From Owenia fusiformis (Eukaryota > Annelida > Polychaeta > Sabellida > Oweniidae), in assembly GCA_903813345.2 (NCBI GenBank), contig CAIIXF020000003.1:7151815-7215814 (forward strand): a stretch of DNA of 64,000 nucleotides. The letters are read 5' to 3'. This document shows, one piece after another, positions 12,502-44,260 of the stretch; the first letter of the stretch is position 1; every line of letters begins with the position of its first letter. The position numbers and the translations under genes are program-made. The notes under the pieces are model-generated. The model was not told the origin of the DNA. It saw only the letters and a list, made by a program, of their open reading frames with translations, and did not search any database.

Positions 12502-13208
12502 ATCACACCATCGGTGGGATATAGTCGTCATACTGGTCTTGGTCGTGATCGTGGTCGTGATCGTGGTCGTGATCGTCCCGCTTTTTGTCATCGCCGTTTA
12601 AGGAAAACTGCTCATCAGATTTTCTCCAAATTCGCAGAGATGATAGAGCATATGAAGTACTAGAGCTGATTAACTTTTGGGTGGCCATCTTGTTTTCTGG
12701 CGGCCATTTTGAAGGTTTTTCGAAAAATCTTGTCATCACCATTTTAGGAAAACCGCTCATTGGATTTCCTTCAAATTTACACAAATGATAGAGGATATCA
12801 AGTACTAGAGCTGATTATCTTTTGGGCAGCCATCTTGTTTTCTGGCAGCCATTTTGAAGATTTTTTGAAAAATCTTGTCATCGCCATTTCAGAAAATCCG
12901 CTCATCGGATTTCCTTCAAATTTACACACATGATAGAGGATATCAAGTACTAGAGCTGATTGACTTTTGGGCGGCCATCTTGTTTTTTGGTGGCCATTTT
13001 GAAGGTTTTTCGAAAAATCTTGTCATCGCCATTTCAGGAAAACTGCTCATCGGATTTCCTTCAAATTTACACAAATGATAGAGGATATCAAGTACTAGAG
13101 CTGATTAACTTTTGGGCGGCCATCTTGTTTTCTTGTTCTTGAAATTTGTAAACATAATAGGAGAACAGTTTTCCTGGTTCATAGTGTCTGCCTATTTGAT
13201 GGTGTGAT
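12502..13208 (+). mobile_element. Element E: hairpin-headed, tandem-repeat element
   Basis: ATCACACCATC at 12502-12512 is inverted at 13198-13208. The head contains CACC-ATC-GGTG and GGGATATAG, as in element C. A GGTCGTGATCGT microsatellite follows at 12539-12575, in the place of the CCGT run of its relatives. About four 142-145 bp monomers (12588-13130) then alternate 'ggccattttgaaggtttttcg' with 'atagaggatatcaagtacta' sequence. The tail has a weak GTGA/TCAC hairpin after the inverted motif. There is no coding capacity. Confidence 0.65.
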
Positions 13209-13331
13209 CTCGTTCACGTCCTGTGCCTTGTTATAGTTAGATTGTTAATCAAAACTATAACCTTCATACGCTTGATTTATTTTGCCATGAACTGAATCTA
13301 TTCGTCAATTCAATTTGTTTTATTCTTAATT

Positions 13332-15185
13332 ATGTCACCACCAAAAGTGGTGACATATTGTTATGGTCTCCGTTTTTTTTGCGACGGCGGTTGGTGGTTG
13401 GCGTCCGGCGGTTGGCGTCCGGCGGTTGGCATCCGGCGTCTGTAACAATTTCTTACAACTTCCTATAACTTAACAAATACAGTTTAGACTGACTTCAATT
13501 TTTTTCTGAATCATCTACATGTTCTCAGAAGTTCAAATCTGACTTTAGATTTGACATTTGACCTTCAATGACCTTCTCAAGGTCAAAAAGGTCTTTTTTC
13601 AACTTGCTTCACATTGACTAAATTTTTTTTCAAAATCATCTACATGTTCTCAGAAATTCAAATCTGACTTTAGATTTGACATTTCACCTTCAAATCTGAC
13701 TTTAGATTTGACATTTGACCTTCAATGACCTTCTCAAGGTCAAAAAAGGTCAAAAAGGTCTGTTTTCAACTTGCTTCAAATTGACTAAATTTTTTTTTCA
13801 AAATCATCTACGTGTTCTCAGAAATTCAAATCTGACTTAAGATTTGACTTAAGATTTGACATTTGACCTTCAATGACCTTCTCAAGGTCAAAAAAGGTCA
13901 AAAAGGTCTGTTTTCAACTTGCTTCAAATTGACTAAAATATTTTTTCAAAATCATCTACATGTTCTCAGAAATTCAAATCTGACTTTAGATTTGACATTT
14001 GACCTTCAATTACCTTCTCAAGGTCAAAAAAGGTCAAAAAAGGTCAAAAAGGTCTGTTTTCAACATGCTTCAAATTGACTAAATTTTTTTTGTAAATCAT
14101 CTACGTGTTCTCAGAAATTCAAATCTGACTTAAGATTTGACATTTGACCTTCAATGACCTTCTCAAGGTCCAAAAAGGTCAAAAAGGTCTGTTTTCAACT
14201 TGCTTCAAATTGACTAAAAAAAATTTTCAAAATCATCTACGTGTTCTCAGAAACTCAAATCTGACTTTAGATTTGACTTAAGATTTGACATTTGACCTTC
14301 AATGACCTTCTCAAAGTCAAAAAAGGTCAAAAAGGTCTTTTTTCAACTTGCTTCAAATCGACTAAATTTTTTTTTCAAAATCATCTACATGTTCTCAGAA
14401 ATTCAAATCTGACTTTAGATTTGACATTTGACCTTCAATGACCTTCTCAATGTTAAAAAAGGTCAAAAAGGTATTTTTTCATCTTGCTTCAAATTGACTA
14501 ATTTTTTTTCAAAATCATCTACATGTTCTCAGAAATTCAAATATGACTTTAGATTTGACATTTGACCTTCAATGACCTTCTCAAGGTCAAAATAGGTCAA
14601 AAAGGTCTTTTTTCAACTTGCTTCAAATTGACTAATTTTTTTTTGAAAATCATCTACATGTTCTCAGAAATTCAAATCTGACTTTAGAAAAGACATTTGA
14701 CCTTTAATGACCTTCTCAATGTCAAAAAAGGTCAAAAAGGTATTTTTTCATCTTGCTTCAAATTGACTAAATTTTTTTTCAAAATCATCTTCATGTTCTC
14801 AGAAATTCAAATATGACTTTAGATTTGACTTTAGATTTGACATTTGACCTTCAATGACCTTCTCAAGGTCAAAAAAGGTCAAACAGGTCTTTTTTCAACT
14901 TGCTTCAAATTTACTAATTTTTTTTTCAAAATCATCTACATGTTCTCAGAAATTCAAATCTGACTTTAGATTTGACATTTGACCTTTAATGACCTTCTCA
15001 AGGTCAAAAAAGGTCAAAAAGGTCTGTTTTCAACTTGCTTCAAATTGACCCAATTTTTTTTTCAAAATCATCTACATCTTTTCAGAAGTTCAAATTTGAC
15101 TTTACAAGTTCTCAGAAGTTCAAATCTGACTTAAGTTTGAACTCATAATATTGTGAGCAACTAGGTGGTGACATTTTGTCATGTT
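13332..15185 (+). mobile_element. Element B: hairpin-headed element with 11-unit satellite core
   Basis: ATGTCACCACC at 13332-13342 opens a 9-bp hairpin (TGTCACCAC/GTGGTGACA) and recurs inverted at 15164-15174. The recurrence runs into a second hairpin, TGACA-TTT-TGTCA, at 15169-15181. A GGCGTCCGGCGGTTGGCGTC run follows the head. The core is about 11 monomers of 132-168 bp, each with CTTGCTTCAAATTGACTAA, ATCATCTACATGTTCTCAGA and repeated GGTCAAAAAGGTC. No ORF is conserved. Confidence 0.75.
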
Positions 15186-15429
15186 AATGCCTTGTTTTGT
15201 TTGCATTCAGTCCAAAAAATATGTCTTTGAAATTGCATTTTATAGTCTTATGTCAGTTACCTTAAGTTTAGTTTTTATACTGTGAATGTCACGACAGGTT
15301 TAATCTTTTCTTGAATGTAGTCAATTGACACTATGTATGTGTTGCCATGAATGTTGAATGTCATAGGGTTAATTTAATATTAGCAAAACAAGAACTGTTC
15401 AACTATTTAGGGACTTACACTATTTGATT

Positions 15430-15575
15430 CTAGGGAAATAAAATGAACATGAAAATGCACCATTTCATTCTCAGCACATAAAATGCACCTTTTTATTCTA
15501 GGGTCATAAAATGCACCTTTTTATTCTAGGGTCATAAAATGCACCTTTTTATTTTAGGGTCATGAAATGCACCAT
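15430..15575. repeat. Minisatellite, about 29 bp unit
   Basis: About five units contain AAAATGCACC, TTTTTATTCTAGGGTCAT or variants. The middle units are nearly identical. Confidence 0.8.
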
Positions 15576-16574
15576 TGTATTTAACCATGATAACAAGATG
15601 TTAATCAAGATGTTAATCATATTTTAAGTATCACATCATAAACTGACTCATATATTCTAATAATTCTTTTAGGGGATACGTTTCTGTTTCCATTATATTG
15701 AATATATATCAGAAATTAGTCTTCTATAACATAAATAGATGTCATGCTCAGCATGATCCATTGTAACTTAGTAGCTTTTAAGTCAAAGTCAGCATCATCT
15801 ATACATTAGTATGAAAGTGAAGTTTTGCAACTCTTCTTCATTATTGAATATTTTGATGGACAGCAATTTTTCAAACTTAGAATTCCACTTAAAGTCACTC
15901 ATTTTTCACTGAATTGATGCATTGCAAGTTTCATAAATCATTTGAAATCTTGAGTAAAGTACTTCTTATAAGTTGACCAGCATGCATAATCAATGAAGTT
16001 ATCCACAAGTGGTTCAAGTTCTGAGCAAATTTTGGACATTGGACAAGACTTGCATTTTTGACCAGAAGATCATGTGATTATCTAAGAGACAATTACGCAT
16101 CCAATTGGAAGGTTAAATTAATTCATGATTTTAAAAACATTTGAATTGTGAGAAATGGAGAGTACATGTAGTTACTGGATCTTTGCTGTTAAATTTGGGG
16201 ATGCTTGAGCATGGGTGACGAATTTACCTAAATTGTGACAAGTTTTTCTCATAATTTCATTTTTGAAAATATGACTTCTATTTTTCATATGCCAAGCTGT
16301 GTACTAATATGTTATAGGGAAATTTAGATGTCAATTTTTCTTTATCATACACAAATAGAAGATCCCGAAACTTCACCCATAAATGTGAAATTGATTTGTC
16401 AAAATAAAAATCTCCCTTTTATAAATGTGTGACGATCAATAATATACTAATGCAATCTAACAGTTAGAGGTGTTGACACAACGACCTCGAGCTGTGAACC
16501 CTTGAGTATTATTCCGGGATCAGGCCTTTTATACTAAATGAAACCAGAAACGAGCGTTCGATTTGCTAAACTCT
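15576..16574. other. Intergenic, no gene recognised
   Basis: No supported feature; AT-rich single-copy-looking sequence. Confidence 0.5.
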
Positions 16575-16676
16575 TTTAAAGGGAACTTTCTGCTATACTT
16601 TCTACTATACCCGTCATGTTATGTGACCCAAATGAGCCATCTGGCGGTGAACGTGGTAACTACCTACTCACATCTG
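16575..16676 (-). mobile_element. MITE family G, truncated inverted copy
   Basis: The reverse complement reads CAGATGTGAGTAGGTAGTTACC and continues with the landmarks of the 5886-6312 left half (GGTGG/GATGGCT, GGGTCA-ATA-CATG, GGGTATAG). Confidence 0.7.
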
Positions 16677-16734
16677 AGTTATTCTTCGGTTATTCAACTA
16701 TAACTTCATATTTCAGTTTTCCATTCTTTTTATT

Positions 16735-16890
16735 TCACAATATGAACACATTTTAGCATTTGTACATATACATTATGAACACATTTTAGCATTTGTACAT
16801 ATATGAACACATTTTAACATTTGTACATATATGAACAGATTTTAGCATTTGTACATATATGAACAGATTTTAGCATTCGTACATATATAA
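16735..16890. repeat. Minisatellite, about 28-36 bp unit
   Basis: Five units of TATGAACA-ATTTTAGCATTTGTACATA occur with small changes. Confidence 0.8.
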
Positions 16891-17019
16891 TGCCATAATC
16901 ACAGATTGCACTTTACAATAAATACAATTAATAATAAAGAGATAAAATACTACACAATTTACTTCCATATTAACAATTAATTCAGTTATTAGGCCCAGGA
17001 AATGCAAATTCTCTACATA

Positions 17020-17393
17020 CAAGGTGTCCCCCAAAAATTGTACACAATTGAAACATAAATAATGGGTTTTTTTCATCAAAAAAGCTGAGCTTTGCACATT
17101 ATAAAGAGAATTTATTTTCCAATTTGCTATTAAGTATGTATAGAAATTTGTAATTTACTTACGAAAAATTTTAACATTTTAGATGACATGCTCTTAATGG
17201 TCTCCATAAGAGCCGAATGTGATTCCAAAGGTGGAAAAATGGGTGACAATACTAAAACAAGTTTTTTCCTAGAACTATAGAGTTATACTTCGTGAAACTT
17301 TCAGATATTTATGATAATTTGAGCTTGTCAGATGTCCAAATTTCAAGAATATTCATGTTTTGTCTCTGGTCCAGTGTATTTTGAGACACCCTG
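17020..17393. mobile_element. Mariner-like MITE (374 bp), TA target duplication
   Basis: The left end CAAGGTGTCCCCCAAAA and the right end TTTTGAGACACCCTG are imperfect inverted repeats flanked by TA (17018-17019 and 17394-17395). There is no transposase reading frame. Confidence 0.7.
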
Positions 17394-17395
17394 TA

Positions 17396-19446
17396 ATTAC
17401 ACGAAGTATGAGTACCTTTCACATGTGTGCCTGGGGACTCAAATATTACACTGTAATGTAAATGTAGCACATTCTGTCTTAGTATGAGTATATACAATAT
17501 GTTGCACCTATTCCCAGTATTCCAGTGTACTTTTCACTTATGATATGACATTTCTAAGGTATTTATGTTACTTTATGTTAGAAAATTATATTCAGAATTT
17601 TTAATCATGAGTATACTTAAGTATAATGTACCTCCATCCAATCAGTCTTCTGTCTCCTTGTATATCCCCAATGTCACTTCCTGCCCTACCCCCCCCCCTC
17701 TCCCCTTTACCCAACCCCCTGTTTTTATTATTTCCATAACAGTGCTTAATCATACTTTTGACATAAGTTTAGTATAATAGAATATTATGTTCGTCTCAGA
17801 TTCTAAACCTCTTTATCAATTGCCATTTCAAAAATATTTATTAACACATTCAAGGAACTCATTTTGACATGCAGACGTAATAATTATGCATTTCCTTTAT
17901 TCTTGGAAACTAAAGGTCTCCATGGCAATAAATCATTATTGAAGCAAATATTTTTTTGGCATCTCATCAAGGATTTCAATGAATTGATTGATTAATAGTT
18001 GTCCCTCAAATAATTATTTCTTGAAATTGTTTTCTTGGTCTGTTTTTTATCACTATCCATATCCTATTTTTATATCAATTTTGATGACTTCAAACTTGAT
18101 GACTGGGAAATTCATAATAATTCATAATATTTCATGAAATTCATACAATTCATGAAAGTCTATTGTTACAAAAATCATTGAATTTAATTTTCAATAGTGG
18201 CTTTGAGAAAAAGCTCATGTTAGAATAGAATATTCAGTGTACGTTAAGATTTGACAAAAATCCTGCCTTAAATTGATGAACATCTAAAAACACTGACTAT
18301 AGTGTACATTATTTCTCTGTTCTTTGCTACATATCTAGTTTTCATATCTACATAAATGAACTCTACAAAAATAAACAATATTACATTAAGAGAGAAACAA
18401 TTAAACCTTAGGAACCTGACAATGTATCTTACACATTTTTCTGGACATCTTGACCAGCATCATTTTCCTCTGTTTTGTCCAATCTTAACATTTATTTTTT
18501 CACAAATCTGATAGCATGATGTCTTCTTAACCTCTTGAATCCCAGGCTTTAAATTGGTTTGAAAGCAGAGAATTTTAATTTTTTCCAGTTTTTGACATTT
18601 TACTAGACAAATATACAATAGGTGATGCTCATCTTAGTAAAATTAGGCAGCAGAGGTCATTTCTACACATTTTTTATGAACTGGATGAAGATTGTTCAAA
18701 TTAGAGCAATTTTTGTGAAACATTTTGTGACCGATTATCTCGTCATTCTACAGTAGGTTTCAAGGTCATTTCGTTGGTAACAAGAAATCTTGTCATTCTG
18801 GGTAGTCAAGATGTTAAATAGGTTATGGTTCCCTAAGATCCTAGAATACATTCCTTACATAAATTATGCCATGTCTTACAGTACATGCACAGATAAACAT
18901 GTTCGTATATGAACAATTCTCTAATAATTTGAAATACACATATTAGCCAATCTCATACATGTATAATTTCACGTTGACTTTGTATTTTGGTACTTTTCAT
19001 TGTACAGTAATGTATGATTTTCTGTTTTAAGTTCACTTTAACAATACTCTATACACAAATACATATTTCCTTAACTCTCTTTTCGACCTATATCTCTATA
19101 ATTATGTCATATGGAGTTGTCTTTTTATTGATATCTTTCTATATTCCTTCATAGTTCTTGTGTATGTACATTTTTACACTTTTTGGACAGCCCTCGTACT
19201 TTTGATTTTACAACATAATCACCATTCAATTGTTCTCCATACTAGGCTACTGATTTAACCTTATACAGAGTACAAGGTTGTATAATAATATTTACACACA
19301 CAATAAGTAGGACTAGAGTTTTCTCTGAGCGTCTGCCTCATTTATATTGTATGAGGCTATGAACACAGCCAATCCAAATCCAAGTTGAATCCATTACCGA
19401 AAATCCACAGGGATTCCATGTGGATCAGATTATCGCTGTATGTCAG
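17396..19446. other. 3' flank of the receptor gene, no other gene recognised
   Basis: AT-rich. The 3' UTR of the receptor gene (minus strand) should lie in the right part, but I could not fix its end. A C-rich tract lies at about 17685-17720. Confidence 0.4.
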
Positions 19447-20712
19447 CTACTGTGGGGTGGTAGCAATCTGGGCTTCAGCCCCATTTATAGTATATACCCC
19501 CTCATCTTGTTCATACTCTACTGGTCCATCCTCAACCTTCTCTTCAGCTCCTTTTGGTAGCAGCTCCTCTTGCTGCTTTGTCTTCATCATTGGGCTTTTC
19601 TCAGAAGTACAATCTGCCATGATTTTGTCCAGATTTTTAGGATTACTGGGTGTGCGGTCAATGTAGAGACTGCTGAATTGTGTGAACGATACACTCGAAC
19701 CCTTAACACGGGATAGTGATTTAAGGGGTGTGCCTCGTCCTTTGTGGAGGATAATGTATCTCCATTGTTGGACCATATGCTTCATTGTCTTTACAAATTT
19801 TTGATTGAATACACAATATAAGATGAAATTAAGGGATTGATTAATGTTAACGAGAATGTTGCTAACTATAGCAAGAGCACGGAAAAACGTAGATCCGACA
19901 AAGTTATTGTAGCTTTCTCCTTTCCCGAAGATTCCTCTCGCGATGTGCCGGTTGGCAATCACCGAGGGTGTAAAACAAATGAGGAACAGGATAACGATGC
20001 TTATAAGAGTGACCGTTAGTCGTTTCTGGTCTCTTGTTTGATATTCAGTTGATGATGACATTTTGGGTTTGAGACTTTCACGTCGTGTCTGGGCCCGCCA
20101 AACAATAATAATGAGACAGATATTCAGTATGCCCAAAATGAAGATTGGGATAAGCTGTATTGTAGTAACATGGAACCATGTAATTCCGTGATAGATTGAA
20201 CTTTGTTCAAATGCCGTTGAAGCGTATTGGTACTTCACTGTACTATTTGGCTTGTTTTCAACATCCATACAAAAGAATAGAGGAATGTTGATCAGACAGG
20301 CCACAAGATAGGTGATGATTATCGCGCGTTGTGCTATTGTCTTTGTGCAAATGTCTTTCGCATGTAGCGGATACCTGACAAAAATAAACCTCTCTAGGGT
20401 GAGAACAACGGTGATGAATATTCCCGTAGTTGAGGTCATGTTCGCAAGTGGGAAATACACCTTGACATCGAATACTTTCCATTCATAACTAGTGTCATCA
20501 GATGCCCTTGAGAAAGTACCATGTATAAAGGTCAAGGTCAAAGTTGAAAGGTCAGCCACAGCAAGGCCTGTGAGATAGCTGTATGGAGATTCGTGAAGAC
20601 GCTTGCGTGTCAGAACCAAAAGGTTAAATATGTTACAGATGATGCCAAATATGCAAATGCAGGGATTGATAAACGTGAAGACCACCCTCTCGAATTCTTC
20701 AATGTCACTCAT
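19447..20712 (-). CDS. Rhodopsin-family GPCR, FMRFamide/peptide-receptor-like
   Basis: A single uninterrupted frame encodes 421 residues with seven hydrophobic segments at about 11-35, 44-66, 85-110, 128-148, 182-205, 231-254 and 277-301. Typical landmarks are N28 (CNIFNLLVL) in helix 1, LAVAD at 50-54 in helix 2, LTLERF at 104-109 in place of DRY, a CFTP motif at 246-249 in helix 6, and NFILY at 295-299 in place of NPxxY. The NFxxY form and the NPCICIFGIICN start resemble invertebrate FMRFamide-type neuropeptide receptors; the exact ligand cannot be told. A glycosylation site N156-S-T lies in extracellular loop 2. The long cytoplasmic tail (about 305-421) is Ser/Thr-rich, then acidic. The ATG follows an in-frame TGA at 20773-20775, so the start is well set. 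The receptor should act in the plasma membrane through G proteins. I see no cysteine at the usual top of helix 3. Confidence 0.88.
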   Translation of the reverse strand: MSDIEEFERVVFTFINPCICIFGIICNIFNLLVLTRKRLHESPYSYLTGLAVADLSTLTLTFIHGTFSRASDDTSYEWKVFDVKVYFPLANMTSTTGIFITVVLTLERFIFVRYPLHAKDICTKTIAQRAIIITYLVACLINIPLFFCMDVENKPNSTVKYQYASTAFEQSSIYHGITWFHVTTIQLIPIFILGILNICLIIIVWRAQTRRESLKPKMSSSTEYQTRDQKRLTVTLISIVILFLICFTPSVIANRHIARGIFGKGESYNNFVGSTFFRALAIVSNILVNINQSLNFILYCVFNQKFVKTMKHMVQQWRYIILHKGRGTPLKSLSRVKGSSVSFTQFSSLYIDRTPSNPKNLDKIMADCTSEKSPMMKTKQQEELLPKGAEEKVEDGPVEYEQDEGVYTINGAEAQIATTPQ

Positions 20713-22563
20713 GGCTCTGTTGTTGTTGGTTATCTTGCTTTTCGGTGTATAGATATTCCTGTCTCTATTACCTCATTCACGTAAACAATCCTCTTTATGT
20801 ATACTGTTTTTATTACTATATCCAGTTATACACAACAGAATCGGCAATTGTGCAGTGTAATTAAAAGTTGAACATTACATGTAAGTCTGCTGTTAATTGC
20901 TGTAGTTTCATTACCATTTCAGTTATCTCACCTTCATCGTTAGCATTTGTACAGCTCATTTTGAATGTTTCTTTTCATATATTGGCTTTTTGAATTTGTC
21001 TCATTCACAAGCACTGTGGAATTAAACCTTTGTTCTATTTGTTTAATATCTCTTTATATCACAGTTGTATGTATCACTATTTGATCTTGTCTTAAACACA
21101 AGCTCTTTGTGGAATTAAACTGTTGTTCTATTCTTCTATTTGTTTAGTGTCTCTTTATACGGCAGCTGACGATGATGATTGCATCATATCCCAGTCTAAA
21201 GTGCACAGTTGTTATGATAATTATAGTCTTTATTTTAGCGGCTGTTACTCCGTAATAACACCCTAATGATCCTTCCTAACTTCGATTAACTTATTGACGC
21301 ATTTGATGTAGTCATTTATCAAGTCTTAAGTTACAAAGTACATTTAGTATGGAGACTATAGACTTAACTTAATGTCTCTGATATCTAACACTGTTTCGCC
21401 CATTATATTCCTCCGCACCTTAATTACTGTTTTTACCATCCATTAGGGGCTTTAATAATGGATATATCTGCTTGTTGTCAATTTGTTAATGTCGGACCCG
21501 AGGTTCTTCAAATTGTTACCTGGAATCATAAAAAGATACAAAACTCTTGAATGTGCTTATTATCTCTTTAAAGAAATATTGTGTAATTTACAGGTATTAA
21601 CCAGAGGCCATTAAAAGAACATTCGTAAAGTAAGGAATTCCTACAGTCCGTTTTTCTGACTTACAATGACATCATTGCATCCAAGATAGCAATAATGGAT
21701 TTAAGAATTCTTTAACTTTACGAAGTTTCTGTTAACCCTGAGCTTTATCATTGCAGCACTTAAATGAGAATTTCAAAAAGGAGTAGTCATTTACTTAAAG
21801 GGTCTGTACAAGTTTCAGATCAGATAAAAAAATACCTACTGAAATATACATGCAAGGAAAACAAGATATATGATTTTTATTTAACTTCTGATTTTAAGTC
21901 TAAGAAACCTTAAACTATACAGAAAGTGATAACTTCTCGTGGTATTTTGGTGGGCAATACCTCATTGGTATATTCCATATTTTGTGTTTCTTACTCAAAG
22001 ATAGAGCCCAAACCCCCTCCTGATGATTTAGCCCGGAAATCTTTCATGTGACGCCATACACAGACATGCAAGTATACTCCACAATATTTTATATAAATTT
22101 CAGACCTCTCGTCAAACACCCTGAATTACATAATGGCAAACTAACTTTGCCTGAACAGTAGACTCTCATTAGACTGCCCTTATATCTCAATGAAATATAA
22201 TATTAGTTCACTTTAGAATTATTGTAAATCATACCTAGCTATAATACTCAATAATGCCAGTTGTATATAATTACCATGACGATTACATGACATAATTTGA
22301 ATTACACGAACTAGAAATTAGTTTCATTATGTTTAGTCAATGAAAGTGGCATTTTTATAGTTCATAATTGTCTGACAGGGATTAGAAAAGCACACATTGT
22401 ATGCCACCTCCTTGTTATTAATTTTCCCAATGCAAGGTTACAAAATCATCTGCCTCTTATAGCCCAAGCCATTGTGACCCCTCACCCACTACTTGAGGCT
22501 TTCTCACACACATATGAGTAAAGGAAACAGGGGTCCATTATAGTCTTGGGGCAAACCTAGCCT
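20713..22563. other. 5' flank of the receptor gene, no gene recognised
   Basis: The receptor's promoter or 5' exons should lie here, but no signal can be fixed. Two diverged copies of a roughly 110-bp segment (landmarks GTGGAATTAAAC, GTTCTATTTGTTTA and TCTCTTTATA) lie at about 20995-21060 and 21095-21160. Confidence 0.45.
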
Positions 22564-26624: not shown

Positions 26625-26676
26625 AACATCTAATTTGTTGGTACTATATCTTTCTGCACTGTGATAAACTGTTCAT

Positions 26677-28246: not shown

Positions 28247-28485
28247 ATCCCACTTTGAAAATGTGCTCTGTTGTCATCATCTTTAGCTGCCGGGTCGGAG
28301 TGTCGGTGCACATTGGCAGGTGGGAATACGAAGGCGCTACAAAAATCATGTCATCAAAATTCCAGGAAATCTGCTTACCTTTCAACTTGAAATTTCTACA
28401 GATGCAAGAGCAGACTAGACTCTGATTAGGTTTTGGGCATGCTGGGTAAATTACATGGTGGCGATTCTGCTCATCAAAGTGCGAT
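28247..28485 (+). mobile_element. Element F: short, degenerate hairpin-headed element
   Basis: ATCCCACTTTGA (28247-28258) is matched inverted by TCAAAGTGCGAT (28474-28485), 11 of 12 bases. Inside are a GGTCGGAGTGTCGGTG segment, where the relatives have CCGT runs, and one monomer-like stretch ending CTGATTAGGTTTTGGGCATG. That stretch is similar to the monomers of element A. Confidence 0.45.
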
Positions 28486-29238
28486 ATTTATTACTGTGTG
28501 TTTCTTGTTTGTATTACCTTTATTCATTTTTGAAGCTGTAGATCAAATCCAAACCTTATTGAACATGCTCATCAGCTAAAAGGGGAAAGTAAAGCTTTCA
28601 ATGACTAACTCGACTACAGACATCCATTGTATTTAACAGATATCTTTAAGAAACATGAAGGGACATTGACTTTATTAGTTGAGCTATCTCTCCAAAAATG
28701 TCAAAATATGATACATGTACTTGTAATCGGCACTATGGATGGTATAACATATAAAATTATTTTTTGGAATACCTCACTCTGATTTTTTCTTGATTCTTTT
28801 TCTAATGCTTTAAAGGGCCAGAAACCAAAGGAATTCTACAATGAAATTATCCCTCATCTAGAAATCTTGATATAGATACAAAAACCAAACCCAAATAAAT
28901 TATTTCCTAAATCTAAAATATATTAATCACACAATTACCATCTTCGTCATTATTTTTCACAAATGCAGCTAATAAAAAGCTGTCAGTGACAGTGACACTT
29001 TAAGTGAAGCGGAACCTCACGATTCAATGTCACATTTCCCAAGTAATGATGTCACATTTATTCATGTCACATTTTATATTGTAGATATGGCCAATCGTGG
29101 AGAATGCCCTTCAAGATGAAATTAATAATATCAAGCCATAGTCAATTCCAAATCAGCCATGATTTAAAAGAATGGGGACAATATTAACAATACTAATCTT
29201 TTTTGCAAATGGCTGATACATTTAAGTCATTCCACATT
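28486..29238. other. Intergenic, no gene recognised
   Basis: No supported feature. Confidence 0.5.
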
Positions 29239-33747: not shown

Positions 33748-33986
33748 AAAGAAAATTATCTGTTCAATACAAGAAAAGATATTTCACTTTTTATGATGTA
33801 ATAACATGGGATCTATGGGGAATCTACCCATCCTAGAAATCACATTTTGAAAGAAAACTTAAATTACAAACAATTTTAAAATCGTAATTTTAGATGTAAT
33901 TTTGTTAGTAGCTATCAAGTAATAAGTTCCTTTTGTAATTTTTTATCTTTCATGATAAAAACCGAGATTATTTGTACTCACACCTA
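33748..33986. mobile_element. MITE family G, partial copy
   Basis: It shares AAGAAAATTATCTG, ACAAGAAAAGATATTTCACT, an ATGGGGAATCTACCC-like segment and the eroded right terminus GTACTCACACCT with the copy at 5886-6312. The left end is missing. Confidence 0.7.
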
Positions 33987-34553
33987 AGTCTGTTAAATAG
34001 CTCAATTGTCAAAATAATTTTTTTGTATTAACACAAGCAGCCAACCATGTTGCATGAGTACGGATGAATGGTTTAGATTAGTGATTCTCTTGTGTATTAG
34101 TTCATTTGTTCTTGCTTACACAGCCATGTTAGTTTTTCAAGATTCAATTTACTCTTTTATGATTTTAACTCGATCAGACACACTTGGGAAATCACTGTTA
34201 CATCATACTCATTACGGTTACATGACTGTACGGTTTAATGTATAATTATGTAAAATCTGAGAAAAAATTGTTATTGTTTAAAATGGAAAATCAGATTTTT
34301 GAAAAACAATTAATTATAATTACTATAATTATTTTGAATATGTTCATATGTCATGGTTGGTTTAGGTAGATTTTACTTCAAATCCAGTTTCTTCATTCAA
34401 TCAGCTGTTGTTCCTTTCCTGTTAAGCCACAATCAATTTTCTTGTTTTCTATAAAAAATGGATCGCAAAAATCAATCGAGTTGGTTCTCAACTTGATATG
34501 ATTACTTGCCATTTTCTCATATGTTTACGCTAATTGGTTCTGGTTTTATTATT
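33987..34553. other. Intergenic, no gene recognised
   Basis: No supported feature. Confidence 0.5.
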
Positions 34554-36214
34554 ATGTCCCCACCACATAGTGTGGGGCCATATTGTCGGCCTAGGCGCAT
34601 CCGTCTGTCTGTCCGTCCATCCGTCCATCTGTCCATCCGTCCGTCCGTACGTCCGGGAGTTTTCTCCAAATCCGCTACAGATATCACCTTCAAATTTTCA
34701 GGGATAACTTATGAGTGCATACAGATGTGGATGAAAGAATTTTAACTCGATACCTACTTCCTGTCGGCCATTTTGAAGTCAAATGCTAAAATCCTTGTCT
34801 GCAAACTTTAAGAAAAACGGCTTCACAGTTGCTCTTAAAACTTTAAAATCTTGTTCAGCTCACTTCATTCTAGATCTGATTAGGTTTTGGACCTGTTAGC
34901 TCAGTCATGTCAGCCATTTTGAATGTCTTAAGAAAAGTTAGCGCACGATAATACTTTGTATCATATTGAATGGTGTTTTTGAGTTTTCATACTTTAACTA
35001 TTTAGTAGCTTTATAAATAATTTCAGATGTACTTTGTTGTAAAAGCCTATGTTATTGTTAACAGTAGTTATATGTGATAATTTTGTAAGAAGAAATCAGC
35101 AAAAACACATAATCACTTTTTTATTGTCGGCCATTTTGGATTTTTCCGTCCTAAAATCTTGTCTGTGAAGTCTTGTCTACGTGTTTTCAGGTGAACCGTT
35201 TGGTGGATCAATTTCAAATTTTCAGGGATGATTCTTAGTATAAAAATCTAGATCTGATTTGTTTTTTGGCATTCTGGGTAAATGTCAAGGCAGCCATTTT
35301 GGATTTTCCGTCCTAAAATCTTGTCTGTAAAGTCTTGTCTACGCGTTTTCAGGTGAACCGTTTGGTAGATCAATTTCAAATTTTCAGAGATGATTCTTAG
35401 TATGAAAATGTAGAACTGATTAGTTTTTTGGCATTCTGGGCAAATGTCAAGGCAGCCATTTTGGATTTTCTGTCCTAAAATCTTGTCTGTAAAGTCTTGT
35501 CTATGCATTTCCAGGTGAACCGTTCTGTAGATCAATTTCAAATTTTTAGGGATGATTCTTAGTATGAAAATCTAGATCTGATTAGTTTTTCGGCATTCTG
35601 GATAAATGTCAAGGCAGCCATTTTGGATTTTCCGTCTTAAAATCTTGCCTGTAAAGTCTTGTCTACGCGTTTTTAAGTGAACCGTTCGGTAGATCAATTT
35701 CAAATTTTCAGGGATGATTCTTAGTGTGAAAATCTACATCTGATTAGTTTTTTTGGCATTCTGTGTAAATGTCATGGCAGCTATTTTGGATTTTCTGTCA
35801 TAAAATCTTGTCTGTAAAGTCTTGTCTACGCGTTTTCAGGTGAACCATTTGGTAGATCAATGTCATATTTTCAGGGATGATTCTTAGTATGAAAATCTAG
35901 GAACAGATTAGTTTTTTGACATTCTGGGTAAATGTCAAGGCAGCCATTTTGGATTTTCCATCCTAAAATCTTGTCTGTAAAGTCTTGTTTACATGTTTTC
36001 TAGTTAACTGTGTGACGGATCAGGGGTGGTTCTTAGTTTGAAAATCTAGAACTGACTAAATTCTTGGCAATATGGGTAAATTTTAAGGTGGCCATTTTGG
36101 ATTTTCCGTCCTCAAATTGTGTTGGTAAAGTCTCAGTGTCTACTCATTTTCAGGATAACCATTTGATGGGATCACCCATTGGTGGGGACATTTTGTACAC
36201 ATTTGTGTTCTTGT
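34554..36214 (+). mobile_element. Element A: hairpin-headed element with 162-bp monomers
   Basis: ATGTCCCCACCA (34554-34565) opens a CCCCAC/GTGGGG hairpin and recurs inverted at 36180-36191. A CCGTCCATCCGTCC run follows at about 34610-34655. The core has about seven units of 150-168 bp from 35124 to 36180, each with GGCAGCCATTTTGGATTTTC, CCTAAAATCTTGTCTGTAAA and GGGATGATTCTTAGTATGAA. After the inverted motif come hairpin ACACA-TT-TGTGT (36197-36208) and TCTTGT. The truncated copy at 50815-51181 matches through this tail, so the element ends near 36214. Confidence 0.78.
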
Positions 36215-36694
36215 GTTCTTTGTTTTTCTTAAGAATTTATTGTGACAGCCCTTCTCTCTGGATTGACTCTTCAGTCTCACTTTTTCATATTTTTGCAAAG
36301 TCATCCTAACAATCTCCCTGTTCTCGATATTTTGTAAATATTTTCTGCAAATACTAAATTGACATTGGATATATTGACATTGACTCTTATTGACAATTTT
36401 ATATTTGGCTATATTGATAATTTGACTTGTTTTTGTAGATATTGATACTATCGTGGGGGTACACTATTGATAGCTACTTTCCTTTTATAGATTTCATTAA
36501 TGACTTCTTCTTTTGTTACAATTGTTCAACTTTCCACATTAGCTCTTTGTAAGAGCTCAGTTTGGTGTATCCTCCTCTTAAATTGAAGATGATTAATGGA
36601 TCTAGTCTTGTCCAATCAGTTAGGATATCAACACACTAAATTTTCTGAGTTGAAGTTCAGTTACACTTGTCTGAAACTGAATACAATTTTGAAC
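36215..36694. other. Intergenic, no gene recognised
   Basis: No supported feature. Confidence 0.5.
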
Positions 36695-37060
36695 AAAATA
36701 TTCAATCGACCAGGCACCAGCCAATGATTCGGAGCAAATGTGATCCAGACATAATTGGAACACCTTTGGTACTTCTAAAGAGTGTTCCACTTGGGAGGTG
36801 TTCTACTTTTAGAGGTTCGTTTAACATTAAGTCAGTTGGTCTTGAGACTTTGAAAAGTGTTGGTTTTCCACTTTATAACAAACAAAATATTCAATCGGCC
36901 AGGCACCAGCCAATGATTTCGGAGCAAATGTGATCCAGACATAATTGGAACACCTTTGGTACTTCTAAAGAGTGTTCCACTTGGGAGGTGTTCTACTTTT
37001 AGAGGTTCATTTAACATTAAGTCAGTTGGTCTTGGGACTCTGAAAAGTGTTCCACAAACA
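36695..37060. repeat. Tandem duplication, about 193-bp unit
   Basis: Two copies (from about 36698 and about 36891) share CAAAATATTCAATCG, CCAGGCACCAGCCAATGATT, GTTCCACTTGGGAGGTGTTC and GTCAGTTGGTCTTG. The second has one extra base in GATTTCGG. The GTTCCACTT/AGAGGTTC wording resembles the interior of MITE family H. Confidence 0.85.
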
Positions 37061-38410
37061 TAGGTGTTCTACTTCTCAAGGTTTTCTAATTTATAATCTG
37101 GTTTTACGTAATACTTTTTCATTTTTTTAAAAGGCTAATATTTGAGATGATTGAGATAAGCATCAAATCTGTGAAATCATTTTTAGAAGTCAGAGTTAGT
37201 AATTTAGAGAAATGTAATGTAATAGCCAATAGGGAATTAGAATAGGGTTTTACTTGCTTATTCAGTTAAATTAACAAAGATAACTTCTCTTTTTGACAAG
37301 ATTTTTGATAAAAGTGATTTCTCTAAATCCCAATGTATTGATGCCATATAAGTACACCACTGTTTTCCACATTAAACAATAAAAATCAAAAAATTTCAAA
37401 TCTATTTCAAATTTAAAGAGCCTCATATTTTTGTGTCACCCTGTTACAAAATATGATGTCAAATTCTCCAATTGGCGACCTAAAAATATTCAAAATAGAC
37501 CCTATTTTCTCACCCTCGCATATGCCTCAACTTTCTAAAGCGATGAGAGCTCAATATGCCATTGATTTGACCTCTGGCTCTCTAATGGATTTTCAAATCC
37601 ACTCTTGTACAAAAAACCACTTGTGCAAATAATGAAATACACCAATGGCCGTGAGCGAAATTAAGTAAACTAACCAAATTATCATTCTTGTTTTCAACTA
37701 GAAAGGTCAAAGAGACCATTAATTTGTATTGTTTCAATGTCACATAAGTAAAATGAATCTAGTATTTTGAAAAATCAATATATTGGTGACATTTTCCCTT
37801 TAATTTAAAGTACAAAAAGTGCATACCCACAGGAAATATCTCAGAAGGGTCATTTTCAAAGTGGAACAGTGAGAAAAAAGTGAAATCAGCAAGGAATAAA
37901 GTAAAAAACATTTAGTGAACCTCCTTAATTATACAGAACCCCATGATCGCTGGTGTGAAATTTATTGAAATTTTCAAGAAATTTAAGCGTGAAATAAGCG
38001 TGAGAAACGGAAAATTCAGGCATATTATTTGATGGAATTTGGATCTGTTTGTAACGTAGGACTCCACCATGTAGACTAATATCTCTATGCTAATTGGACA
38101 CATGGTTGCTATTAGCGCGATCACTTTGTAATTCTTAGGTAAATACTGACTGCTCTAAAAAGGCAGAATCTTCCAAAAATATTTGCAATTTCTGTTTTTT
38201 TGTAAGCCAAATGATAAAATAAATAGTATTCTGTTCAAGAGTATTTCATATAGATAATATTTGTTTACTTGCCCATTTTTATGTATTAAATATTAATATT
38301 TTACCATGATAAAGTGTAGGATAGAATACATAGATTGTGTGGGCCTTAAGAGTTCTCAATTAACAATCGCTTGTATCTCAGCTAGCTCAAACCAGCACAC
38401 TATTCCTATA
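37061..38410. other. Intergenic, no gene recognised
   Basis: No coding signal. A short stretch near 37880-37910 (GAAATCAGCAAGGAATAAAG) resembles the 60-bp minisatellite unit at 27.5 kb. Confidence 0.5.
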
Positions 38411-38594
38411 CAGTAAAACCTGTCTAATGTAAACACCTCATGGACCATTCAAAAGTGTTCACATTAGCAGGTGTTCACATTTCAAGGCTTTTTAACATGT
38501 AAGTATATGGCAGATGGAAAAAACAGGACCAAAAAAGTGTTCAAATTGAGAGGTGTTCAGATTGACGAGGCGTTCAAATAAACAGGTTTCACTG
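38411..38594. mobile_element. MITE family H copy (CAGTAAAACCTGTCT ends)
   Basis: The left end is CAGTAAAACCTGTCTAATG and the right end AACAGGTTTCACTG, an imperfect inverted pair. The inside has repeated GTGTTCACATT/AGGTGTTCA phrases. TA precedes the left end. Confidence 0.75.
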
Positions 38595-39470
38595 TTCTGA
38601 TAAAATATTTGTTTAATTCTCAGACTTTAATAATCTGTAGTATACTCCGTTAAATGGCATTACCTGTTTTTGATATTGATCATTTTGTAAGTCATACTTC
38701 TCATGTTCTTATTTTGTTTTTGAGTTTGTAGGAGTTTCTTTTAATGGATTACACTCCTCCGGTACAACTTTTTGAATAATTAGGATATAGTTACGCTCAT
38801 GTTCTTCTTTTTTTCTTTTTATTTATCTGAGTCAACATATTTGACTTTAAGATTTCACTTTCTTTAATCATACATTGCTTTTGATTTATTCTTAATTTAT
38901 CAGGCCAAACCATTTCGATGAACTGTTCTTAACTTTTAAGTTTTTTAGTATGAATGTTTTTTTTGCATTCTGGGTATTACCAGCCCCCCTCCTTTTGCGG
39001 GCCTAGAAACATTTTTAGGGTCCCAAAAATTTTTAGGCCCAAGAATTTTGTAGGGCTTCATAAAATGGGCCTTTTGGGCATAGTTTGGCCTTTTTAGGGA
39101 TGTTGCATGGTTTGAACTGATTTGCTTTTTGGGCATTTTGTTTTTTTCAATTTTTCTTTTTATTCTCTTCAAGGGTGCAATATTGTTCACCCTGTATCTT
39201 GTTTCATCTTAGTTTCTTGTTTTTGAAATTCTCCAAATTAAATGGAACTTTGGATGAGCTTCATAATGGTGCATAACACTTATGTCTGTCTACATCTCTA
39301 TATATTAAATCAATGGAGAATGCTTACAAAGTGCCTGGCTTGTTTATAGCAATGGTCTAAGCAGAAAGCAAGATTTATGGTCAAAACTTGTGAATAGACT
39401 CAATTATACTTATCTATGAGGAATGCATCATAGGCTTAGACTGATTGAAGGAATCAACGCGCAGGCAATA
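38595..39470. other. Intergenic, no gene recognised
   Basis: No supported feature. A local run of GGGCC/TTTTAGGG phrases occurs at 38990-39080. Confidence 0.5.
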
Positions 39471-39478
39471 TATGAGAA

Positions 39479-39660
39479 CAGTAAAATCTGTCATCTAAAT
39501 ACCACTGGCACTGGTCAAATGTGTTTGGATTTGCAGGACTGCTCTCATTTCAATGTTGTTTTAATGGAAGTTTATGGCAGATTAGGAAATGGGAAAAAGT
39601 GTTCACATTGCAAGGTGTTCAGATTTTGAGGGGGGTTTCAGATATACAGGTTGTACTGTT
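39479..39660. mobile_element. MITE family H, degenerate copy
   Basis: It starts ACAGTAAAATCTGTC and ends ACAGGTTGTACTGT, with GTGTTCACATTGCAAGGTGT inside. A further fragment (GTGTTCCACTTATAGAGGTG ... ACAGGCTTTACGGTAC) lies at about 39890-39972. Confidence 0.6.
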
Positions 39661-40196
39661 CTTCAGCCATGGACACCAGGGTACTCATAAAAACCCCAGT
39701 ACCCTGGAGAACTGACCAATGTTATCATTATGTGCCTGAATTTAATGTTATGAGGGTGTGTTGAGTTTGGACATAAAGATTATACTGGTATTTTGGAGTT
39801 CTTCATGGATTTTGAGATTTGGTAGCTATTTTTGTATAAGTATTGAGCGAGAGATATATGGATACTTTTATATGTCTCCAAATTCTGAAGTGTTCCACTT
39901 ATAGAGGTGTTCCACTTATAGAGATTCCACTAATCTTACAGATGTGTTCCAATTTACAGGCTTTACGGTACTTGATCATGAATATACTTTGATACAACCC
40001 CTCTTTTCTGTCAATGTTAAAGGTTATGAAAGATGTTATGAAAATGATTGCTCACCAGGCCTATTAATTGCAATGACTAGCGCTAATTTTAAGACGATTA
40101 AATCACTTACAACATCAGCAGATCTCTCAAATAACTGTAATATTTACAGATAAGAAGGTTGGAATCGAAGTCTATATTTTACGGTGATTTTTTATT

Positions 40197-41195
40197 GGCT
40201 CACACAGTGAGCCTATGGGATCGACCAGGCGTCCGTCCGTCTGTTGGTCCGTCCGTCCGTCCGTTGGTCCGTACGTCTGTCCGTCCGTCAACATTGGCCG
40301 CACAAATTAAAACTGCTATTCGGATTGAGTCATATCCACAATCATTTTATGCATATCCATAATGGCTATTTGACCTATCATCGCCATTTCCCAAGTTCGC
40401 CCGCTTTCCGAGAAATTGCTGATTTTGACGTCAAAAAGTCAAATTTTCTGTAAATACTAGACACTTTGTTGAAGTAGAACTTTCAAATAACTTGTAGTAG
40501 TTGCTGTATATGCAACTTATGTCCTCTGAAGATTTCAAAGCTCTTGGAATTACAGTTTTTGGTGCTTACTCTATAAAATTTGACAAAAAGTAGGACTTTG
40601 TCATTTTCAGGAAACTTTCTTATGTATAAAGTCAATGGCAGGTTTTGTGATTGACAAGTTTCTCAAAGTTTGCCTTATACTTGATCATTTCTTGCAATGA
40701 ATTACATCATAACTAGATTTAAGCATTCCCTACATATTGCTCAATATATGTCAGCATCAATTTTTTACCGTTTTTGAGATATTTGACGTAAAAAAACAGT
40801 AAAAATAAGTTATTTTTCAACTTGCTTCAATTTGACCAAATTTTTTTGTGAAAATCATCTACAAGTTACCAGGAGTTCAAATCTGACATTAGTTTTAGGA
40901 TTTGACCTTTACTTGACCTTCAGTGACCTTTGAAAGGTCAAAAAGTTGATTTTTCAAATTGATTTTTGGATGTAAATTTTGGTCAGCTTAATCACAAAAG
41001 ACCTTACTGAGCTCTAAATAAGTTAAATTTTCAAGGTCAAAGATCATCAAACTAGGTCACACAACTGTGCTGTCTAAGTTTCTCAAAGTTCAAGACTACA
41101 AATCCAAATCAATATTTTTGTTTCAAAGTCAGGATATACATTCCTCTGAAGGTTCCAAACTGTGTGAGCACAGGACCGTGGGTCCTATTTTTTAT
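40197..41195 (+). mobile_element. Element D: hairpin-headed element with single satellite-like monomer
   Basis: The head is a perfect 7-bp hairpin, GGCTCAC-ACA-GTGAGCC (40197-40213). GCTCACACAGT (40198-40208) recurs inverted at 41159-41169, followed by hairpin AGGACC-GTG-GGTCCT (41172-41186) and a T run. A GTCCGTCCGTC run with GTTGGTCC variants lies at 40230-40290. Positions about 40815-40950 are one monomer homologous to the array unit of element B (CAACTTGCTTCAA-TTGAC, AAATCATCTACA, TTCAAATCTGAC, GACCTTCA). No coding capacity. Confidence 0.72.
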
Positions 41196-41214
41196 GTGAA
41201 TTTTACATCACACT

Positions 41215-41450
41215 CATGTCCCTTTAAGTGATATCTGTGAAAATTGAGCCTCTTTATGCAAGCCCATTTAAGTGATAACTGAATCCCTTTCATTTAGCCT
41301 CTTAAAGTGATAACTGAATTCATTTAAATGTCCCTTAAGTGATAACTGAATCCCTTTAATAAAGCCCCTTTAAGTGATAACTGAATCCCTTTAAGTGATA
41401 ACTGAATCCCTTTAAATGAGAATTGTCATAGCTGAACCCCTTTATAGAAA
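41215..41450. repeat. Irregular minisatellite, about 21-25 bp unit
   Basis: About nine units of CCCTTTAAGTGATAACTGAAT occur with insertions. They start right after element D. Confidence 0.8.
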
Positions 41451-42090
41451 TGAAAACCTATAGGAAGATTGCTAAGTTTGTATGATCTAAGAGATCATGT
41501 CCCCTCATTGTTAAAACCTTATGAAATCTATATGAAAACCATATCATAATCTATATGATCATATTCAATATTAATAGGAACTTATATAATGTCCCTTATC
41601 AAATGTGAGATGGCAAATTTCCCAGTTCGTGAGTTCATATTCATATTATATTCGAACCTTTTATCATTATCATGATATCCTAATATATTTACAAGAGTTG
41701 GATATCTTTATCTAAATTTTATCGTATAAGTATTGGATAAATAATTTGTAAAGACCTACCTGTATTATATTGTACATATATTCCAGGATTGGAACTTTTA
41801 AATATTGTTAATCGTAATTGTAAGCTACAATTACATTTCTTTCTTTACGATCTCAGATCAGCGTAACTCTACTCGATCAAACTCTTTCATTATTTTCTAT
41901 AACAATCGTAAATGAATTGTTTGCATAAGAGCACTTTCCTGGTATAACTGATGGTTTTCATTAATTGATATATTTGTAGTTCATTAATCCATTTTTTAAT
42001 GCATTAAATCGCTGTGAATTATGATGACTTTACTTCAACTGCCTATTCTCAACTGAAGGCTTTAACCAGAGAATTCAGAAGACTATTATT
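41451..42090. other. Intergenic, no gene recognised
   Basis: No supported feature. Confidence 0.5.
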
Positions 42091-43060
42091 GTTAAAGGGA
42101 TCGTTTCAAAAATTTATAGATTCAGGGGGCTTGTCAAAACATAGTTGATCTCCAAGGGATAAACTATTACTGCTAAAAGGACCGTATCAAGTATTGATAG
42201 ATTCAGGGGACTTGTCAAAACATAGTTGATCTCCAAGGGATCAACTATTATTGTTAAAGGGACCGTATCAATCATTCATAGATTCAGGGGTCTTATCAAA
42301 ATATAAATATACTTCAAAGGATCAATTATTATTGCTTAAGGGACTGTATCAAGCATTGATAGATTCAGGGGACTTGTCAAAACATAGTTGATCTCCAAGG
42401 GATCAACTATTATTGTTAAAGGGACCGTATCAATCATTCATAGATTCAGGGGTCTTATCAAAATATAAATATACTTCAAAGGATCAATTATTATTGCTAA
42501 AGGGACTGTATCAAGCATTAAAGGTTCAGGGGACTTGTCAAAACATAGTTGCTCTCCAAGGGATCAACAATTATTATTAAAGGGACCATATCAAGCATTC
42601 CTAGATTCGGGTGACTTATCAAAATATAAATATACTTCAAGTGATCAATTATTATTGCTAAAGGGACTGTATCAAGCATTGATAGATTCAGGGAACTTGT
42701 CAAAACATAGTTGCTCTCCAAGGGATCAACTATTATTGTTAAAGGGACCGTATCAATCATTCATAGATTCAGGGGTCTTATCAAAATATAAATATACTTC
42801 AAAGGATCAATTATTATTGCTTAAGGGACTGTATCAAGCATTAAAGGTTCAGGGGACTTGTCAAAACATAGTTGCTCTCCAAGGGATCAACGATTATTGT
42901 TAAAGGGACCATATCAAGCATTCCTAGATTCGGGTGACTTATCAAAATATAAATATACTTCAAGTGATCAATTATTATTGCTAAAGGGACCGTATCAAGC
43001 ATTGATAGATTCAGGGAACTTGTCAAAACATAGTTGCTCTCCAAGGGATCAACTATTATT
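42091..43060. repeat. 81-bp satellite array, left part
   Basis: About twelve units of roughly 81 bp built on AAAGGGACCGTATCAAGCAT, ATAGATTCAGGGG and GGATCAACTATTATTG. Two types alternate, one with AAAACATAGTTG and one with AAATATAAATATACTTCAA, giving a 162-bp higher-order period. The unit is 27 codons, so both strands keep long open frames (for example 42535-42903 plus and 42518-42760 minus). The array resumes at 44261. Confidence 0.92.
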
Positions 43061-44260
43061 ATCCCACCGAACGAAGTTCGAGGGGGATATAGAAAAGCCG
43101 TCCGTCCGTCCGTTTGTCCGTCCGTTCTTCCGTCCGTTCTTCCGTCCGTCCGTTCGTCCGTCCGTCCGTTCGTGTGTCCGGGCAATAACTCAAATACCGG
43201 TCGACGGATTTCATTCTAATTTTATAGGCTTATGCCTTATGGGTGTAGGACCTCTGCTCGAGAAGGAATTTTCAATATGGCCACTTAATTCAAAATGGCG
43301 GCCATTTTTCGGAAAAAATATAATCTTTAATAACTCAAATACTAGTGGATGGATTTGGTTCAAATTTTATATGCTGTTGCCTGGGTACAAAGGAGCCTTG
43401 CTCAAGAAGACATTTTCAAGATGGCCACCAAATTTCAAAATGGCGGCCATTTTTCGTAAAAATCCGTTATCTTTGATAACTCAAATACCATTTAATGGAT
43501 TGGTTCAAATTTTAGATGCTGATGCCTAGGGACATAGGAGCTCTGCTCGAGAAAGGATTTTCAAGATGGCAGCTAAATTTCAAAATGGCGGCCATTTTTC
43601 GTAAAAAAACATCTTTGATAACTCAATTACCATTGAATGGATTTAGTTCAAATTTTACATGATGATGCCTAGGAACATAGGAGCTCTGCTCGAGAAGTGA
43701 TTTTCAAGGTGGTAGCTAAATTTCAAAATTGCCGCCATTTTTCATAAAAGAACGTAACCTTTGATAACTCAAATACCAGTTGACGGATTTGGTTCAAATT
43801 CTATATGCTGATGCCTAGAGACAAAGAAGTTCTGCTCAAAAATTAATTTTCAAGATGGCCCCTGAATTTCAAAATGGCCGCCATTTTTCGTAAAAAAACG
43901 TAATTAATGATAACTCAAATACCAGTGGATGGATTTGGTTCCAATTTTATATGCTGATGTTTAGGGAAAAAGGAGATCTGCTTCAGAAGAAATTTTAAAG
44001 GCGTTAGCTGAATTTCAAAATGACTGCCATTTTTCATTAAAAAAGTAATCTTTGATAACCCAAATACCATTGGACTGACATTCTCTGCTAAAGAAGAAAT
44101 CTAAAGATGACAGCTGAATTTCAAAATGGCAACCATGTTTCATAAAAACATAATCTTTGATAATTCAAATACCAGTGGATGAATTTGGCTCAAATTTTTT
44201 ATCAAAACATGTTTTGTTCGGTGGGATTTGCTACTCCGTGGAGTTGCTGTTTTTCTAGTT
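43059..44260 (+). mobile_element. Element C: hairpin-headed element inserted in the 81-bp satellite
   Basis: ATCCCACCGAAC (43061-43072) leads into hairpin CGAAC-GAA-GTTCG and recurs inverted at 44216-44227. A CCGTCCGTCCGTTTGTCCG-type run covers 43098-43172. About seven monomers of roughly 130-150 bp follow, each with ATAACTCAAATACCAGTGGA, TTCAAGATGG and AAAATGGCGGCCATTTTTC. The tail is hairpin ACTCC-GT-GGAGT (44233-44244), then TGCTGTTTTTCTAG. Both flanks are satellite, so the empty site can be read: only TT is shared at the joins. Confidence 0.82.

Follow-up and report, generated by a model that had tools for sequence, protein, structure and literature searches.

The stretch analysed here, hereafter the window, comprises 64,000 nucleotides of the annelid Owenia fusiformis (contig CAIIXF020000003.1, C3:7151815-7215814) and holds, all on the forward strand, six repeat elements that we name A to F. 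In keeping with an annelid host, the genome has three matches to the annelid-typical erythrocruorin linker domain, each above its cut-off and grouped on C6 (best E 5e-7). The six families are very probably non-autonomous Helentron-class rolling-circle transposons (HINEs), and two of them, A and B, have coding parents in the same genome. The Helentron-type assignment proposed in an earlier note on this DNA is thereby borne out by coding partners for A and B; C to F are filed as Helentron-type by structure only, that is, by their layout, their ends and their T-rich target. Copies were searched for in the contigs of the 498-Mb genome (525 contigs), and the rough candidate matches number 1,833 for the A head, 1,583 for the A tail, 2,090 for B, 2,131 for D, 2,695 for C, 301 for E and 1,290 for F. 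The queries ran past the 3' ends, and the best 40 copies stop, Ts included, at about 36214 (A), 15196 (B), 41193 (D), 13232 (E) and 28509 (F), while 39 of the 40 best C matches reach the query end at 44260. With an element taken to span from the first base of its opening motif to the last base ahead of its 3' T run, the starts given earlier for all six lie within 0-2 bp of the ends set by the genomic copies.

Element A (34554..36213) is a complete HINE copy with both ends in common with copies L001-L008. It begins with the 12-bp subterminal inverted repeat (subTIR) ATGTCCCCACCA (34554..34565), which opens a 5' hairpin, and continues with a GTCC-type microsatellite (34598..34655), a tandem array of 5.4 units of 162 bp (35130..36000) and the 3' subTIR TGGTGGGGACAT (36180..36191), after which a tail ends CTTG/T at 36213 (a slash marks the boundary of the element). 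A second, 5'-truncated A copy lies at 50821..51181, with a tail matching the A tail at 35/35 positions. Element B (13332..15194), likewise a complete HINE sharing both ends with copies L031-L037, starts with the subTIR ATGTCACCACCA and a strong 5' hairpin (13332..13343), followed by a short tandem run with a 14-bp unit (13396..13438), an array of ten units of ~135 bp (13697..15101) and a 3' subTIR (15163..15174) with a tail ending CTTG/T at 15194. The monomer types of both arrays recur in the coding elements described below. The HINE-like element C (43061..44258; both ends shared with copies L010-L015) sits in an 81-bp satellite array, whose adjoining monomers provide its empty site; it carries the subTIR ATCCCACCGAAC with a 5' hairpin (43061..43072), a CCGT microsatellite (43098..43173), an array of 6.1 units of 146 bp (43185..44069) and a terminal segment (44216..44258) made of the 3' subTIR (44216-44227), a 3' hairpin and a tail ending CTAG/TT. 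The satellite array around it (42082-43060 and 44259-44711, split by C) has higher-order periods of 162/323 bp.

Element D (40197..41187), HINE-like, complete and with both ends in common with copies L017-L022, contains a GTCC microsatellite (40230..40289), a single B-like monomer segment (40792..40964) and a terminal segment (41159..41187) with the 3' subTIR (41159-41170), a 3' hairpin (AGGACC/GGTCCT) and a T run. The HINE-like element E (12502..13230), also complete, has subTIRs at 12502-12513 and 13197-13208, an array of 3.8 units of 145 bp (12585-13133) and a short tandem unit other than GTCC/CCGT. Element F (28247..28507) is short, with subTIRs at 28248-28259 and 28473-28484 and one monomer; its relatives L038-L044 show several monomer matches each. 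Arrays and short tandem runs in the window were delineated with TRF.

In each of these elements the opening 12-bp motif recurs in inverted orientation 17-31 bp ahead of the 3' end. Tested as a 12-mer match against 500 dinucleotide shuffles per element, it reaches 12/12 in A and C (no shuffle as good), 11/12 in B, D and E (one shuffle each at least as good) and 10/12 in F (four shuffles). Hairpins were assessed by single-strand DNA folding, as z-scores relative to shuffles and with the value for F taken from an F-like copy. On the 5' side we obtained -5.5 for B, -3.8 for F-like, -3.2 for D, -3.1 for C, -2.0 for E and -1.25 for A; on the 3' side, C (-3.2) and D (-2.6) are supported, whereas E (-1.2), B (-1.1), F-like (-0.9) and A (-0.5) are not set apart from shuffles. 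The earlier claim that A to D share their whole layout is therefore too strong as regards the 3' hairpin, which is weak in A and B. The CCGT/GTCCG-like run is clear in A, C and D, while B has a different short tandem unit, and the expected monomers of 130-165 bp form arrays in A, B and C but only one segment in D, where TRF gives no array of monomer size. In the copies read, A, B, E and F run from TT/AT plus motif to CTTG/T, C ends with CTAG/TT, and D runs from TT/GGCTC to CCTA and a T run.

Flanking sequences were counted in 48 copies with both ends, namely 38 fetched copies, the six in the window, and the coding elements A1 and B1-B3; six of the 44 HINE copies fetched (L009, L016, L024, L025, L026 and L030) were excluded, one of their ends being absent, cut off or diverged beyond what the matcher could recognise. 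The left flank is TT in 46/48 copies, and the right flank is T in all 48 and TT in 39. An identical word of at least 3 bp, other than Ts, is found on both sides in only two, L037 (TATT) and L039 (TTTATT). Six empty sites with 86-98% identity were usable: that of the window C element, represented by the adjoining 81-bp monomers (98% over 200 bp), and those of the C copies L012 and L014, the B copy L037, and the D copies L021 and L022. We did not count L034, where the match is the head of its own neighbour, nor L003, L028, L036 and L042, at 68-81% identity (the difference at L042 also exceeds Ts). Relative to the empty sites, the net gain is two Ts in C (three sites) and B (one site) and six Ts at one D site; at the D site L021 it is four letters (three Ts and one A) against an 86% identical paralogue, the other five differing by Ts only. 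At L037 a single T in the empty site faces two in the left flank of the filled one; at least one T is then part of the element, or the paralogues differ. Terminal Ts are described for Helentrons as a part of the element that varies in number (PMC4067079). Target duplications of 2-10 bp, which the earlier note had asked to be checked, were thus not seen beyond T runs in 46/48 copies, in agreement with the empty sites. Its view that these are not ordinary terminal inverted repeat (TIR) elements is upheld by the lack of a fixed-length target-site duplication (TSD) and by the 17-31 bp tail past the motif, present on the 3' side only.

Coding relatives were sought among 58 PF14214 (Rep) matches, 57 of them above the cut-off and 42 in open frames of at least 1,400 codons. 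The 10-kb pieces around eight Rep matches were examined first, and then pieces upstream of them; in all, 13 Rep loci were read and five more downstream only, together covering 21/58 matches. The ends of the families were looked for in eight loci (R45-R48, R51, R52, R67 and R68, the last being part of a decayed A-type locus), in the B-type copy on C47 and in the stretches downstream of five Rep fragments. A Rep-helicase element sharing the family ends was obtained for both A and B: in the first B partner the B tail (34/34) lies downstream of the Rep frame on the same strand and the B head (36/36) in the upstream piece, and in the A partner the corresponding values are 33/35 for the tail, also on the same strand, and 33/33 for the head.

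For family B there are three complete coding elements, B1 (C6), B2 (C10) and B3 (C11), of 12,116, 11,609 and 11,857 bp, with frames of 2,508, 2,576 and 2,424 codons and 13.3, 8.3 and about 8 or more array units of ~135 bp, respectively. They are 99.3-99.5% identical over ~8.2 kb and lie in different flanks, and their alignments end at the B tail, as does that of a fourth, 5'-truncated coding copy with a stop (C47). B3 (L073+L056) has two heads 48 bp apart, at positions 771 and 819, a tandem duplication of its 5' end. The coding element of family A, A1 (C1; 12,201 bp), comprises the A head, an array of 3.1 units of 162 bp, a 2,053-codon frame and the A tail, arranged and oriented as in family A. 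In A1 and B1-B3 alike, the array lies between the 5' hairpin and microsatellite and the Rep frame, and the encoded proteins of all four have DUF6570, Rep (PF14214) and PIF1 domains, PIF1 being over the Pfam cut-off in each. No DDE domain, whose presence in a relative the earlier note had named as a check, was found by the Pfam scan of these four frames. Rep motif 2 reads RGS(P/V)HxH in all four, with the Helentron-diagnostic S, and the two-tyrosine motif Y...Y..K was read in A1 and B1. In A1, Exo_endo_phos (PF03372) is also over the cut-off (25.9 against 24.5 bits), and the C-terminal piece of B1 gives PF14529 at E 0.0017, below the cut-off. Over 1,496 aa, C-terminus included, the A1 protein shares 50% identity with the B proteins. 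The solved-structure matches of A1 number 19, and Helraiser (7lcc) closes the list, by way of the helicase.

Since they share head, array and tail with coding elements, A and B appear to derive, by internal deletion, from resident Helentrons in which the satellite array was already present, the case for A being weaker than that for B. HINE-B and B1 are collinear across head and array: the first 36 bp agree at 36/36 positions, the last 33 bp are identical in 8/8 copies, and the single-copy head agrees at 118-120/120 positions in the eight copies compared, so that the split between HINE-B and B1 looks recent. A junction is preserved in L033, where the array passes into ~27 bp of the B1 3' flank and then directly into the tail (score 35; 0/1000 shuffles), skipping a monomer-like stretch found before the tail in the four coding B copies. 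HINE-A and A1 are collinear over the first ~1,090 bp (90-91%), with 414-418/430 identities in the single-copy head and 33-35/37 in the last 37 bp (nine copies each). This collinearity places both the array and the short tandem run among the components of the coding parents. Under the published rule, Helentrons belong to one family if at least 11 bp of their subTIRs are identical, and to one subfamily at 80% identity over the last 60 bp (PMC4067079); for A as for B, the subTIRs of HINE and coding partner are identical.

Several observations weigh against this picture. Ahead of the HINE-A tail, ~550 bp are not collinear with A1 and show patchy monomer similarity only, and in the last 60 bp HINE and partner agree at 47-48 positions, 12-18 positions being gapped, which borders on the limit of the subfamily rule. 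The A link comes from one complete locus, A1; another coding locus of A type (C2; L068+L071) is decayed and rearranged, and near 15696-15703 it matches the A1 3' region until 1-2 bp before the 3' subTIR and then jumps to the A head region, from position 111 of the A element. A Pfam endonuclease was not found in the whole frames of B1-B3 at E 0.01, although their C-terminal part is homologous to that of A1. RPA was not seen either: Pfam matches nothing in two side frames of A1 (171 and 206 aa), and B1 has no other frame of at least 150 aa on the plus strand, the strand covered. For A, B, E and F the 3' hairpin does not rise above shuffles, and the Rep loci read (the 21/58 matches, five loci downstream only) yielded no partner ends for C, D, E and F; a search for subTIR pairs around R45-R48, R51 and R52 gave no convincing ends. 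We had considered stronger conservation of the termini than of the interior as a sign of mobilisation in trans, and dropped it as the single-copy head of B is equally conserved. Mobility itself was not observed.

Other explanations of the elements fare worse. That they are ordinary cut-and-paste elements (miniature inverted-repeat transposable elements, MITEs) with slightly internal inverted repeats and a DDE transposase as mover would account for the inverted 10-12 bp pair in all families, and Pearl, a bivalve element, was originally named a MITE (PMC7492417); we nevertheless reject it as extremely improbable, given the 46/48 copies with no duplication other than Ts, the tail that follows the motif at the 3' end but has no 5' counterpart, and the Rep/PIF1 proteins of the coding relatives of A and B. 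The RepHel genes could also be chance neighbours, the HINEs flanking the coding DNA of some other element, as might be suspected from the single complete A locus, the abundance of A tails (1,583 rough candidates) and the lack of a clean tail at the decayed locus on C2. Yet three B loci in different flanks have head, array, frame and tail in common, at 99.3-99.5% over 8.2 kb ending at the tail, the fourth B copy ends at the tail too, and in A1 a 33/33 head is accompanied by the tail, ordered and oriented as in family A; mere proximity is accordingly rejected for B and unlikely for A, and overall we regard it as very improbable. Canonical Helitrons begin with 5'-TC, end with 3'-CTRR, insert between A and T and have an L in the Rep motif. 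We rejected this class as well, the ends here being TTAT/GG...CT(T/A)G or CCTA and the Rep residue S; C is the one exception, fitting CTAG and, in 6/7 copies, A-T insertion.

For C, and perhaps others, a narrower alternative is that not an endonuclease-bearing Helentron but a Helitron-like or proto-Helentron protein acts as the mover. The ends 5'-TTAT...CTAG-3' are readable as an A-T insertion in 6/7 copies (P about 0.005, judged by base composition), a combination of ends and target found in the Phytophthora proto-Helentron (5' TT, 3' CTAG; PMC4067079), and R51 (L065+L051, C6:27.11-27.13 Mb) encodes a 1,873-codon RepHel that has the Helentron-type RGS motif and stops at the helicase, a proto-Helentron-like arrangement. 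On the other side, C resembles the other families in its subTIRs, microsatellite and array, no C ends were found in the 14 kb around R51, and an A ahead of TT is also common in B (6/11) and A (5/10). We thus hold a separate mover to be unlikely, although the ends of C may be nearer to the proto-Helentron type (A before TT in 6/7, CTAG). Another reading concerns the cores: these might be foreign tandem repeats captured as filler by empty Helentron frames and traded between families. B and D monomers are 77% identical over 175 bp, the cores of E and the F-like L040 72% over 170 bp, in both cases with ends that are not shared, and A monomers match those of the F-like L038 at 79% over 61 bp; pairwise comparison of the window elements detected no matching ends save the microsatellite run common to A, C and D. 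Such related cores without shared ends (B/D, E/F-like) do not establish the core exchange suggested in the earlier note; they are compatible with it and with old common descent. What speaks against capture and trade is that the coding elements A1 and B1-B3 already contain the array, placed behind the head and ahead of the frame, and have monomer-like stretches close to the tail, so that the HINEs of A and B need not have captured it separately; capture by a coding ancestor is compatible with this. We find the capture and trade of cores rather doubtful.

Of the published systems, Cg_HINE of the oyster Crassostrea gigas is the closest in layout to the window elements (PMC7492417). Common to both are an 11-12 bp 5' subTIR with a complementary inverted repeat directly behind it, a microsatellite (GTCY/GTCC/GTCK in several), a satellite-like array of 140-180 bp units, a 3' subTIR, a 3' palindrome (here in C and D), a TT target with no TSD, and the occurrence of several unrelated families side by side (PMC7492417). 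The differences lie in the host, an annelid here, in the 3' palindrome, which A, B, E and F lack or show only weakly, and in the coding partners, obtained here for two families, whereas in the oyster none of 10 autonomous elements could be related to Cg_HINE (PMC7492417). The HINEs and Helentrons of mite, Culex and Drosophila likewise have subTIRs (12-15 bp there) and T-run ends, the HINEs being deletion derivatives of a coding partner and the Helentrons having the diagnostic S in Rep, PIF1 and a C-terminal AP endonuclease, which here is over the cut-off in A1 only (PMC4067079). The 5' subTIR of a HINE is palindromic or has an inverted repeat behind it. Tandem repeats occur there in some copies (PMC4067079); in contrast, it is the coding A1 and B1-B3 that bear a satellite-like array of 135-162 bp units here, with RPA not seen. 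By description, the window elements can also be likened to Pearl and to CvA, MgE and DTC84 of bivalves, short elements with ~160-bp central repeats that were later assigned to Helentrons (PMC7492417, PMC11136912), and C to the Phytophthora proto-Helentron, with its 5' TT, 3' CTAG and A-T insertion; the latter is described as Helitron-like in structure, and the accessible account mentions neither subTIRs nor arrays (PMC4067079). The kind of HINE is therefore already known, and the new part is the coding parents with an array of their own for two satellite-carrying families. In the titles and abstract openings of the open-licence papers searched, we found no report of a coding partner of a satellite-carrying HINE of this type besides the partners in PMC4067079.

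As a mechanism, we propose that the coding element would supply a Rep/helicase(/endonuclease) protein that nicks the 5' end, one strand would be peeled off while being copied, the 3' subTIR and tail would be recognised as the stop, and the single strand would go into a T-rich site. HINEs would borrow this protein in trans. HINE-B, and less securely HINE-A, would have arisen through loss of ~10 kb, the frame among it, from a coding copy whose head, array and tail were kept, the length of the array being altered afterwards by slippage or unequal exchange. C to F may work alike, with partners lost, decayed or outside the loci read.

We tentatively suggest that the array belongs permanently to the autonomous Helentron and is not cargo: two lineages whose proteins are only 50% identical have unrelated monomers of comparable length (162 and ~135 bp) in the same place, and monomer-like stretches close to the 3' tail. 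If true, either rolling-circle replication keeps producing arrays or the array serves the element, for instance through iteron-like binding of Rep or a replication factor, or as a promoter, and Helentrons would make dispersed satellites and not merely carry them. Helitron-type elements make up 8.7-12.6% of four oyster genomes (PMC11136912), and many oyster satellites are located in them; the Cg_HINE work could not identify the movers and leaves open whether the arrays were captured or home-grown (PMC7492417). With two families standing beside coding parents that have the same array type, the mover and the source of the array are both testable in one genome.

R45-R48 (L045-L048 with L057-L064; C3, C5, C6 and C12) are Helentrons of a group of their own, whose frames span 3,164-3,259 codons; arrays of 90-154 bp units lie downstream in three of them (about 5 kb in R47). 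Upstream of the frame, R45 and R47 carry A-like monomers, in R47 together with an A-type tail (33/35). In the window, the array monomers of A, C and E have GGC(G/A)GCCATTTTG-like words in common, which may resemble YY1 sites. A direct duplication of ~5 kb (44986-50806 and 51178-56422), consisting of a main block with 93% identity over 4,327 bp and two smaller blocks with 91-93%, has its two copies meeting at the 5'-truncated A element at 50821-51181.

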